A DNA stretch of 64,000 nucleotides from Prochlorococcus marinus str. MIT 9201 (GTDB lineage Bacteria; Cyanobacteriota; Cyanobacteriia; PCC-6307; Cyanobiaceae). The position numbers and the translations under genes are program-made. Numbering within the stretch: the stretch's first letter is position 1; each line of letters starts with the position of its first letter. Below are positions 8,791-53,075 of the stretch, one piece after another. The notes beneath the pieces are model-generated. The model worked only from the letters and a program-made list of their open reading frames with translations, searched no databases and was not told where the DNA came from. Location of the stretch: positions 62,001 through 126,000 of the forward strand of contig NZ_JNAL01000018.1 in NCBI RefSeq assembly GCF_000759955.1, written 5' to 3'.

Positions 8791-9525
8791 TCAATTAAAC
8801 CGTTTTGCAAGAGCTATTGGGTCAAATACTGTAATCTTTTTTCTTTCAATATTGAGGAGACCTGAATCCTTTAAATCTCCTAATAATCTTGTAATTGTTA
8901 CTCTTGTTGAACCAATAGCTTCAGCAATAGCTTGTTGTGAGAGTCTCAAATCTATAGTTATTCCTTTTTCACTTGCAACTCCAAAGTCTCTACAAAGAAC
9001 CATTAAAAAACTTACTAAACGAGAAGACATATCTCTATGGGTAAGAGTTTCTATCATTGTTTCTGTTTGCAGGATCCGACTTGAAAGACCCTGTAACAAC
9101 AATAGTCCTACTGATGCATCTTCTTCTATTGCTCTTAAAACAGAATTCGCTGGAGCTGTTATCATTTCAACTCTTGTGAATGCAATAGCATGATAAAAAC
9201 GATCAGATCTATGGCCTGTTAGTAGAGACAAAACACCAAAAAGGCTATTCTCTCTTAAAAGAGCAACAGTTATTTCTTCACCAGACTCATAAACTCTTGA
9301 CAACCTAACTGCTCCCCTTCTAATCAAATAAACCCTCTCAGCAGGATCCCCAGGAAAGAAAATTGTTTTAGATCTCTCGACCATTTCTGTACTTGCACCC
9401 TCAAGACCTTTAATTACTTCCATTAAAGTTCTATTGATTGGGAAACGTTCTCCAACAGAGTTGATTTTACTTTGTCCGGACTGTTGAGGACTAAAGCGGC
9501 TGAATCCTCGAGACGAAGGTATCAT
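8791..9525 (-). CDS. ntcA: Global nitrogen regulator NtcA (CRP/FNR family)
   Basis: Activates nitrogen-assimilation genes in response to 2-oxoglutarate. 244 residues, longer at the N-terminus than the roughly 223-residue freshwater forms. The effector domain contains [37 protein letters not shown] in broken form, including the [11 protein letters not shown] and [17 protein letters not shown] motifs; the helix-turn-helix at about 190-215 is [20 protein letters not shown], identical in type to other NtcA proteins. Its own promoter carries an NtcA-type site (9573-9588), consistent with autoregulation. It is divergent from the CobO-like/dcd/thyX operon. Confidence 0.97.
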
Positions 9526-9545: not shown

Positions 9546-9588
9546 AATTTAAGAAGACACCCTAAAATTTCTTGTATCAACTGTAACA
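9546..9588 (-). promoter_or_regulatory. NtcA-activated promoter of ntcA
   Basis: On the minus strand the sequence GTTACAGTTGATAC (within TGT-N10-ACA, 9573-9588) matches the NtcA consensus GTA-N8-TAC with one mismatch. Exactly 22 bases downstream is TAAATT (9546-9551), fitting the TAN3T -10 element of class II NtcA promoters. A start near 9539 would give a leader of about 14 bases before the ntcA ATG. Seen directly in the sequence; NtcA binding is inferred. Confidence 0.65.
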
Positions 9589-9666
9589 TTTTCCAAATGT
9601 TATAAGTTTCTTTATGCACTTCTTATTGTTAGTTTCAAATTTCTCAACTCTTTTTTAAGTAAAATT

Positions 9667-9713
9667 ACACTATATGCAGTGTAATTGAATTCAAATTATA
9701 CTGCATGTAGAAA
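9667..9713 (+). promoter_or_regulatory. Paired NrdR-box-like operator over the promoter of the CobO-like/dcd/thyX operon
   Basis: ACACTATATGCAGTGT (9667-9682) matches the NrdR box consensus ACACWATATATWGTGT at 14 of 16 positions. A weaker copy, ATACTGCATGTAGAAA (9698-9713), starts 31 bp later, i.e. three helical turns, the spacing expected for tandem NrdR boxes. Viewed another way, 9670-9686 and 9694-9710 are 17-base inverted arms with 15 matches around a 7-base spacer. A -10-like TATACT lies at 9697-9702 inside the second box, so a bound repressor would block transcription. NrdR itself is not in the window. Confidence 0.55.
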
Positions 9714-9727
9714 AGGAATCTAAAATA

Positions 9728-10309
9728 ATGGGAATTAGTTCAGCTAATAGTTATTCCAAAAGTGACATCAATGTTGTGAATATAAATAGCGCTGACAAAA
9801 CAAACTCAAGAAAATTTATACAGAACGGGCAAATCCAAATCTATCAATCTTCATTCAGAGGCAGTTATTCTTCTATTATTAGTGATTCATTAAGAAATGC
9901 TGCTCTTGGTAGAAAAGTACTTTTAGTTCAATTTATGAAAGGAGGGGTTAAACAAGGGGTTGCTAATGCAGTTAACCTTTGTGGAAATTTAACTTGGGTG
10001 AGATCATCACATTCCTTTGATCAATACAATCCTGAAGAAATTGAAAATAATAAAAATTTAAAAGAGTCTATTCAAGAATCTACACTTGAATTGTGGAATT
10101 TTAGCAAACAAGAATTACTTTCTGGAGAAAATGATCAAATCATACTTGATGAAATTTTCCTTGCTATTGAAATGAAGATAATCGATAAAGATGACTTGAT
10201 TTCAACACTTGAAAACCGATTTATATCAGGAGATGTAATCCTTACTGGTACAGACATACCTAAAGATCTATTAATGATGGCCAATCAAGTAACCGAACTT
10301 CGCTCATAA
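9728..10309 (+). CDS. CobO/BtuR-like P-loop-fold protein with degenerate Walker A
   Basis: 193 residues. From about residue 32 the protein aligns by eye with corrinoid adenosyltransferase (CobA/CobO/BtuR): ALGRKVLLVQFMKGG corresponds to GHGKKVGVVQFIKG, QIILDEIFLAIEM to the LDE Walker B strand, and DVILTGTDIP...VTELR to the C-terminal VIITGR...VSELR. The nucleotide loop GNGKGKTT is replaced by SSFRGSYSS, so the Walker lysine is absent. It may bind corrinoid or nucleotide without being a normal adenosyltransferase. An AAGGA ribosome site lies at 9713-9717. dcd starts five bases after its stop and thyX follows, suggesting a nucleotide-metabolism operon. Confidence 0.7.
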   Translation: MGISSANSYSKSDINVVNINSADKTNSRKFIQNGQIQIYQSSFRGSYSSIISDSLRNAALGRKVLLVQFMKGGVKQGVANAVNLCGNLTWVRSSHSFDQYNPEEIENNKNLKESIQESTLELWNFSKQELLSGENDQIILDEIFLAIEMKIIDKDDLISTLENRFISGDVILTGTDIPKDLLMMANQVTELRS

Positions 10310-10313
10310 AACA

Positions 10314-10907
10314 ATGCTTAAAAATGATCTTTGGATAAATCAAAAAGCTTCTGAAGGAATGATTAACCCCTTCCAATCAAATTTAGTGCGGCATCTTGAT
10401 CCTGATAAGCTACAAAAACCAGTTTTAAGCTATGGATGTTCTTCTTATGGATATGATTTAAGACTTTCATCAAAAGAATTCCTAATTTTTAGACATATCC
10501 CTGGCACTGTAATGAATCCTAAAAAGTTTAATCCTAATAATTTAGAAAAAACAGTTCTTCACCATGATGACGATGGAGAATTTTTTATTCTTCCTGCTCA
10601 CTCTTATGGTTTAGGAGTGGCTTTAGAAAAGATGAAAGTTCCAGAAAATATAACTGTAATTTGCATTGGGAAAAGTACTTACGCCCGACTTGGAATTATT
10701 GTTAACACAACTCCTGCAGAAGCAGGATGGGAAGGCCACCTAACTTTAGAGTTTAGTAATAGTTCAGGGGCAGATTGCAGAATTTATGCGAACGAAGGCA
10801 TCTGCCAACTACTCTTTTTTGAAGGTGATCCTTGCTCTACAACTTATGAAGATAGAAGGGGTAAATATCAAAATCAACCTGAGAAGGTAACTCTTGCAAA
10901 AATCTAA
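10314..10907 (+). CDS. dcd: dCTP deaminase
   Basis: Converts dCTP to dUTP, the precursor of dUMP for thymidylate synthesis. 197 residues; contains SYGYDLRLS (substrate-binding), FILPAHSYGLGVALEKMKVP, the catalytic GKSTYARLGI motif and TPAEAGWEGHLTLEFSN with the conserved catalytic Glu, all typical of the trimeric Dcd/dUTPase fold. It sits four bases after the CobO-like gene and one base before the thyX ATG, so production of dUMP and its methylation are encoded together. Confidence 0.96.
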   Translation: MLKNDLWINQKASEGMINPFQSNLVRHLDPDKLQKPVLSYGCSSYGYDLRLSSKEFLIFRHIPGTVMNPKKFNPNNLEKTVLHHDDDGEFFILPAHSYGLGVALEKMKVPENITVICIGKSTYARLGIIVNTTPAEAGWEGHLTLEFSNSSGADCRIYANEGICQLLFFEGDPCSTTYEDRRGKYQNQPEKVTLAKI

Positions 10908-10908
10908 A

Positions 10909-11541
10909 ATGAGCAAAGTTGAACTAATTTCGCTAACTCCTGAAGCAGAAAAAACAATGGCTTACATTGCAAGAGTAAGTAATCCAAACAATCAGAAAAA
11001 TGAAGATTATTCAAAATTATTAAGTTATTGTATTAAACATGAACATTGGAGTGTCTTTGAGCAATCATTTATGACCTTGCAAATAGAAACTAACAGAGGA
11101 ATTGCAGCTCAAATTTTAAGACATAGATCATTTACTTTTCAGGAATTTTCACAAAGGTATGCAGATAGTTCTCAATTGGGAAATATTCCTTTACCTGAGT
11201 TAAGAAGACAAGATTTTAAGAATAGGCAAAATTCTATTCCTGATCTTTCTGATGATTTAAAAAAAAGATTTAATGCAAAAATTGCTTCACATTTTAAAGA
11301 CGCTTCAAAATTATATGAAGATTTACTAAACGAAGGAATAGCTAAAGAATGTGCGAGATTTGTTTTACCATTGGCAACGCCAACTAGAATCTACATGTCT
11401 GGATCGTGCAGGTCGTGGATACATTACATTCATTTACGATCAGCTCATGGAACTCAAGAAGAACATAAATCTATTGCCCAAAGTTGCAAATCTATTTTTA
11501 AAGAGAGTTTTCCGATTGTTTCAAAATCTCTAGATTGGTAA
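10909..11541 (+). CDS. thyX: Flavin-dependent thymidylate synthase
   Basis: Methylates dUMP to dTMP using methylene-tetrahydrofolate and FAD/NADPH. 210 residues from the ATG at 10909; a TTG at 10894 would add five residues but lies inside dcd. The ThyX signature RHRSFTFQEFSQRY begins at Arg71, and EHWSVFEQ and ECARFVLPLATPT are further family motifs. No thyA is in the window. Its stop is three bases from the stop of the convergent txlA-like gene. Confidence 0.96.
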   Translation: MSKVELISLTPEAEKTMAYIARVSNPNNQKNEDYSKLLSYCIKHEHWSVFEQSFMTLQIETNRGIAAQILRHRSFTFQEFSQRYADSSQLGNIPLPELRRQDFKNRQNSIPDLSDDLKKRFNAKIASHFKDASKLYEDLLNEGIAKECARFVLPLATPTRIYMSGSCRSWIHYIHLRSAHGTQEEHKSIAQSCKSIFKESFPIVSKSLDW

Positions 11542-52547: not shown

Positions 52548-53075
52548 ATGGGCCGAACACTAGAGAATAAGCAACAAATCGTTACTGAGATTAAATCTCT
52601 GTTAAACGACTCGGAAATGGCTGTAGTTCTTGACTATAAAGGTTTAACTATCAAAGAGATGTCTGATTTGCGATCTAGATTGCAAACAACTAACGGCATT
52701 TGCAAAGTTACTAAAAATTCATTGATGCGTAAAGCCATTGATGGAAATAGTAATTGGAATGATCTTGAATCTTTACTGACCGGAACAAATGCTTTTGTCT
52801 TAATCAAAGAAGATGTTGGCGGTGCTGTAAAAGCGATCCAATCTTTTCAAAAAGACACCAAAAAATCCGAAACCAAAGGAGCTTTATTTGAAGGCAGACT
52901 TCTTAGCGATTCTGAAATAAAAGAAATTGCAAGTCTTCCATCTAAAGAAGTATTGATGGCAAAAATTGCTGGCGCTATAAATGGCGTTGCAACTAAAATC
53001 GCGATCTCTATTAATGAAGTACCTTCTGGACTTGCTAGATCACTGAAACAACATTCTGAAAAATCAGAATCCTAA
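52548..53075 (+). CDS. rplJ: 50S ribosomal protein L10
   Basis: 175 residues; the N-terminal domain has [18 protein letters not shown] and [14 protein letters not shown], the RNA-binding part; the C-terminal helix anchors L7/L12. There is no Shine-Dalgarno sequence before the ATG at 52548; the leader ends in an A-rich tract instead. rplL follows 28 bases later. Confidence 0.97.

Follow-up and report, generated by a model that had tools for sequence, protein, structure and literature searches.

What controls the genes that lie divergently from ntcA in the stretch of Prochlorococcus DNA analysed here (64,000 nucleotides, hereafter the window, from a genome of 1.67 Mb), and can the regulator be NrdR, when the operon concerned encodes a CobO-like protein (its gene is called cobO below), dCTP deaminase and ThyX rather than a ribonucleotide reductase (RNR), as classical NrdR targets do? 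All three downstream genes had been named by the first-pass annotation of this DNA, and all three are indeed found (table 1); the gaps between them measure only 4 bp and 1 bp, so a single transcript is likely. The two palindromes that precede the operon are most probably (we would put it at roughly 85%) an NrdR operator, by which NrdR, when loaded with ATP and dATP, would repress dcd-thyX along with nrdJ, and dnaE as well in relatives.

Box 1 (ACACTATATGCAGTGT) is the sole plus-strand site of the window with at least 14 of 16 matches to ACACWATATWTWGTGT, which we take to be the NrdR consensus and which agrees with the Escherichia coli boxes extracted here. Exactly 31 bp after its start begins box 2 (ATACTGCATGTAGAAA), which overlaps a predicted -10 element, TATACT; no good -35 can be read by eye upstream of TATACT in the window sequence. 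Both boxes had been pointed out before, the former as a 14/16 match and the latter as a degenerate copy 31 bp further on that covers the -10, and both descriptions hold. The C-N8-G frame is present in box 2 too, and in either box C occupies position 4, G position 13 and AT the centre. Box 2 matches the consensus at just nine of 16 positions and is poorly palindromic at its ends; at nine of ten positions its 10-bp core agrees with that of box 1 in reverse complement. In NrdR boxes C4 and G13 are highly conserved according to the accessible text of PMC9110341, and the spacers accepted by NrdR are given as 14–17 bp and 24–27 bp in that of PMC12051234; the window has the C4/G13 palindrome and a spacer of 15 bp. 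An NrdR operator would also overlap the promoter, and box 2 covers a predicted -10.

Table 1. Positions in the window of the two boxes, the genes around them and other features of the ntcA–cobO region.
Feature	Position	Strand	Remarks
Box 1, ACACTATATGCAGTGT	9667..9682	+	16-bp NrdR-type palindrome, central AT
Spacer between box 1 and box 2, 15 bp	9683..9697	+	4/15 columns invariant
Box 2, ATACTGCATGTAGAAA	9698..9713	+	degenerate; opposite in orientation to box 1; C4, G13 and central AT
-10-like element, TATACT	9697..9702	+	inside/overlapping box 2; read by eye, predicted
CobO/BtuR-like protein without P-loop, first gene	9728..10309	+	PF02572, 80 bits; below NCBIfam cut-offs
dcd, dCTP deaminase	10314..10907	+	TIGR02274, 120 bits
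thyX, FAD-dependent thymidylate synthase	10909..11541	+	TIGR02170, 169 bits
ntcA, divergent neighbour	8791..9525	-	TIGR03697, 361 bits
Conserved block near ntcA, separate from the boxes	9572..9592	-	18/21 columns invariant

Could such a pair arise by chance? In first-order Markov sequences as long as the window, 0.23 sites with at least 14 of 16 matches are expected, and a pair (C/G positions present in both boxes, 30–32 bp apart, one box with at least 13/16 and its partner with at least 9/16 matches) was met in one of 60 simulated windows. Under a matrix derived from nrdJ boxes, box 1 scores 15.1, second in the window after a site at 52972 (16.9), and the pair scores 3.5, third among the pairs of the window, two others outranking it because box 2 is weak under this matrix. 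The best single score of 30 simulated windows has a mean of 10.3 and a maximum of 20.3, and their best pair score a mean of 0.06 and a maximum of 11.3; the window pair lies inside this range and is therefore proved by conservation, not by score alone. The palindrome at 52972–52987, high-scoring and NrdR-like, is single, lies within the gene of a ribosomal protein (L10 by eye) and probably is a product of chance.

That conservation is pronounced. When 29 intergenic regions from the same genus were aligned (a thirtieth, L030, was dropped since its contig is too short), 15 of the 16 columns of box 1 proved invariant, the exception being position 14 (T or C, once G), as did 10 of the 16 columns of box 2; the intergenic stretch up to position 9660 has 42 of 135 columns invariant in the same alignment. 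The named relatives matched by the window dcd are Prochlorococcus (e.g. MIT 9107, MIT 9314 and many single-cell genomes). Among their 80 loci box 1 is present in all 78 whose contig reaches it, two of them with one change, the contigs of the remaining two ending before it. The 31-bp pitch to box 2 is kept in 76 of 76 matched named loci and in both one-change variants. Box 2 retains both C4 and G13 in 73 of these 76 loci and in 25 of the 29 aligned sequences, G13 being the position changed in three and four cases, respectively. Conservation of the boxes in the ntcA–dcd region, which the first-pass annotation had suggested as a check on its reading, is borne out by these figures. The exact sequence ACACTATATGCAGYGT is found once per genome in 34 of the 300 genomes searched from the family, 22 of them from the window's genus (of 24) and 12 from genus g79, and the same sequence reversed, as a control, gave no match in the 300 genomes; those of the 22 places in the window's genus that are shared with aligned or searched loci adjoin cobO–dcd. 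A chance resemblance, with which the expected number of single sites and the unexceptional matrix score of the pair would be compatible, is refuted by the alignment, given that the pair is conserved across the genus and box 1 across the family, and its probability appears negligible.

Elsewhere in the same genome, 27 loci were examined of the 43 listed with sites at two or fewer mismatches. Besides the cobO site, only one of these (L044:1501-1547, at C10:9283) is intergenic with a C-N8-G partner at a pitch of 31 bp (AAACTATATGTAGTAT and ACTCTCTAGCTAGCGT); it is a possible further NrdR target, and the gene of about 110 codons downstream of it has no Pfam match at cut-off. A scan of eight genomes, with a pattern drawn from boxes already seen and thus not blind, placed the cobO site best or tied best in all eight. 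Another observation concerns two near-perfect, apparently intergenic boxes in a further genome (L266, about 1480–1516; G111 C1:1280007-1280042), which stand 20 bp apart, an unusual pitch for NrdR. A search of Rfam (E up to 1, three loci) assigned no family to the cobO leader.

An NrdR is encoded in the genome that carries the window (TIGR00244, 193 bits), and is related to NrdRs of solved structure. By eye, it has kept R17 and the six DNA-contact arginines named in the accessible part of PMC9110341, and D15 is replaced by E. The same script that scored the window pair at 23 of 32 positions, with a pitch of 31 bp and all four C/G positions present, scored the pairs of E. coli K-12 nrdH, nrdD and nrdA at 24, 26 and 24 of 32, likewise at 31 bp (for nrdA a 32-bp frame ties with the 31-bp one) and with four of four C/G positions.

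If NrdR is the regulator, comparable boxes might be sought at nrdJ, as the first-pass annotation had proposed, and a like pair is indeed present there. A search of the window's own genome with PF02867 returned no match for nrdJ; TIGR02505 found the gene. Outside the window's genus (50 loci from 48 genomes, three of 53 having been dropped for want of an anchor and six of 29 matches, partial or second, left unused), a C-N8-G pair with a pitch of 31–32 bp precedes nrdJ in 46 of 50 loci, representing 28 genera. Shuffled sequences gave 2 in 1000, for a test pattern that was drawn from boxes already seen. A first look had left nrdJ of the window's own genus without boxes; this was overturned by comparison with the other genera, which showed a pair, drifted but at 31 bp, in 18 of 18 loci (AACCGTTAAATAGTGG and ACGCCACAGGTAGAGT in 17 of them, a variant in one). 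At one nrdJ locus (L070:653-714, minus strand) a glutamine-II riboswitch, whose 67.6 bits exceed the gathering score, follows the gene downstream on its own strand.

With a position weight matrix built from the nrdJ boxes of 22 other genera, 44 of 50 cobO loci and 19 of the 27 dnaE loci scored prove to carry a box before the gene; at most 5 in 100 resampled controls did as well. The cobO set leaves out three of 53 loci, which were without the motif; two of them (L160 and L161) were later scored and have the box, and L167 was not found again. The dnaE set leaves out three of 30 loci without an anchor, and five of the 27 come from one genus, g79. At cobO outside the window's genus a second element was found in 43 loci, at a pitch of 41–42 bp to box 1 in 41 of them and of 32 bp in two. 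It falls on the apparent -10, and C and G are both retained in just 17 of the 43, which weakens our earlier candidate, a full box four turns away; the element may amount to a half-site or simply be part of the promoter. The element is fuller in two genomes of genus g32 (G192 and G150), where it reads GCGCTACATTCAGAGT and a one-base variant thereof.

At dnaE, one genome (G112) has ACACTATATGTAGTGT and ACACTTTATCTTGAGT 31 bp apart, and genus g79 carries the exact box 1 sequence directly before this gene and not at cobO, with a partner 30 bp upstream. Five of the 12 exact-box places in g79 were opened, all five lying before dnaE; the copies in L089-L092 fall near 1600–1700, and that in L093 is on the other strand. 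Recurrence of the boxes before dnaE and nrdJ speaks against the notion that they serve the divergent ntcA, or bind NtcA or PipX, for which the intergenic region common to ntcA and the operon is the argument. Furthermore, the box stays by cobO in other genera where the starts of ntcA and cobO are about 0.9–1.2 kb apart, and a separate conserved block is located near ntcA (table 1). This block is probably the gene's own promoter or, going by the NtcA consensus, its NtcA site, and we hold a role of the boxes in ntcA control to be highly improbable.

The dnaE promoters of the window's own genus have boxes in none of the five loci scored. In Prochlorococcus MED4, which we assume to belong to this genus, dnaE is expressed periodically according to the accessible text of PMC2663038, and NrdR is therefore not needed for the timing of dnaE. 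The nrdR gene itself is preceded in this genus by a pair at 32 bp in six of six genomes examined (one of 21 nrdR promoters was dropped without an anchor), the second box overlapping the start codon; at L001:1462-1509, for instance, ACTCTACTATTAGAGT and TCACCACATGCAGTGT extend over the start codon at this pitch. This pair is weaker evidence because the right half of the box is dictated by Met-Gln-Cys codons, and autoregulation of nrdR in the window's genus is possible.

The distribution of nrdR, a match to which was found in 103 of 111 family genomes, provides a further line of evidence, clear in genus g32. Three genomes of 95–99% completeness in which nrdR was not found (G084, G067 and G122) have boxes neither at cobO nor at nrdJ, and in G084 the dnaE box is absent as well. 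The nrdJ pair is missing in three of six loci without a found nrdR (those of the same three genomes) versus one of 43 with nrdR (G205 being untallied). Within genus g32, the genomes with nrdR (G192 and G150) keep the cobO box, ACACTACCCYTRGYGT, and those in which it was not found (G067 and G122) have lost the box and kept a -35, CTTGAC, and the downstream sequence; the fifth genome of g32 (G173), having no dcd match, falls outside the comparison. Decay of box 1 beside a retained -35 argues against the conserved block being simply the core promoter and leader of the operon. That idea draws on the location of TATACT inside box 2 and on the second cobO element of other genera, an apparent -10 often without G13. 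However, box 1 is a near-perfect palindrome upstream of the -10, and like boxes stand before dnaE and nrdJ amid different promoter sequences, so we deem this explanation very unlikely.

Not all genomes conform to the correlation. The cobO box is kept in G075, G141 and G156 (81–88% complete) and the nrdJ pair in G075, G177 and G217 (80–93% complete), with nrdR not found; we read its absence from these five incomplete genomes as assembly gaps. Conversely, some nrdR-bearing genomes have no boxes at one target, no clear cobO box being seen in G077 and G108 and no nrdJ pair in G150. Such cases, and the drift of cyanobacterial boxes from the consensus (TGGTG and GTGGCG in nrdJ boxes), might indicate that a different regulator of DNA-synthesis genes binds a similar palindrome and NrdR is a bystander. 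Against this stand the C-N8-G frame, the pitch of 31–32 bp and the nrdJ target, which together make up an NrdR signature, as well as the lack of boxes in those members of g32 and g48 that have no nrdR match; we consider a different regulator unlikely.

How might NrdR act on the operon? In the accessible text of PMC9110341 and PMC12176259, NrdR with ATP and dATP is described as a tetramer that bridges two boxes at a distance of about three turns, introduces kinks in them and acts as a repressor. For the window we infer the binding of NrdR and the direction of regulation, and also the nucleotide dependence, by analogy with what is known biochemically of NrdR from other bacteria. At high dATP, NrdR carrying ATP and dATP would assemble into the tetramer, whose two zinc-ribbon pairs would grip box 1 and box 2, presumably presented on the same DNA face by their spacing of three helical turns. 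Since box 2 lies on the -10, bound NrdR should exclude RNA polymerase, and the CobO-like/dcd/thyX operon would be off. As replication consumes dATP, NrdR would be released and the supply of dUTP/dTMP would go up with nrdJ and, in other genera, dnaE.

The first-pass annotation had further linked the operon to adenosylcobalamin through its first gene, and this link is not supported. The CobO-like protein belongs to its namesakes by family only: its homology to the ATP:corrinoid adenosyltransferases (CobO/BtuR) 4hut and 1g5r is weak (residues 32–192, E about 1e-6), and where CobO/BtuR proteins have the P-loop GxGKGKT/S for ATP, it has none, SFRGSYS or a variant standing at that place in 17 of 17 aligned Cyanobiaceae sequences and also opposite GNGKGKT in the alignment with the CobA structure 4hut. 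With the P-loop replaced and its lysine absent, it is unlikely to be an active ATP:corrinoid adenosyltransferase and probably has another function. What ties the operon to the B12-dependent reductase is the like type of operator at nrdJ, not the CobO-like protein. The earlier idea of NrdR control is supported by the encoded nrdR, the conserved pair and the like pair at nrdJ, and lacks support as regards adenosylcobalamin.

The open literature on NrdR in connection with Prochlorococcus, Synechococcus, cyanobacteria, thyX, dnaE or replication, as far as its accessible text goes, describes no such operator; the founding NrdR paper of 2005 and the RegPrecise table of cyanobacterial NrdR lie outside this scope, and a prior listing is possible. 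The former, by Rodionov and Gelfand, may list further targets. NrdR boxes are known as a kind of operator; new, as judged from sequence, would be a two-box putative NrdR operator on a dNTP/dTMP operon and the candidate boxes at dnaE in relatives. On balance we lean, with some reserve, towards a wider role of NrdR in marine picocyanobacteria, not confined to RNR: sensing ATP/dATP, it may jointly set nrdJ, dcd-thyX and dnaE, and also nrdR in the window's genus (whose dnaE is boxless), in a circuit from dNTPs to replication that would help to time the daily S phase. If true, the most abundant photosynthetic cells would have in NrdR a general regulator of their DNA-precursor supply, and one nucleotide-level sensor might set several steps of DNA synthesis. 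In Prochlorococcus MED4, NrdJ had the largest daily protein swing of 312 genes measured (18.1-fold for mRNA, 8.5-fold for protein; accessible text of PMC3430701), and the candidate operators may be a part of the control behind it.

It remains to compare the window with known NrdR systems, for which we draw on the accessible portions of the respective papers. NrdR is described there as RNR-specific, the topA gene of Pseudomonas being a debated exception with a single box (PMC9110341, PMC4409342, PMC12051234). The operators of E. coli nrdHIEF, nrdDG and nrdAB (PMC12176259) resemble the window in having 16-bp palindromes with C4 and G13, a 15-bp spacer and a position near the promoter, and the central AT of the window is mostly present in them as well; the E. 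coli targets, however, are RNR operons, whereas the window operon is dcd-thyX. In Streptococcus pneumoniae (PMC12051234), where the targets are again RNR operons, the boxes have spacers of 24–26 bp and a four-turn arrangement, like the cobO pitch of 41–42 bp in other genera of Cyanobiaceae; the far element of these relatives differs in the incomplete retention of C and G noted above, and the window itself shows the three-turn spacing. The topA gene of Pseudomonas aeruginosa (PMC4409342) is, like the window operon, a non-RNR target related to DNA replication, but it has a single box through which NrdR seemingly activates, while the window has two, one of them over the predicted -10, as would suit repression.
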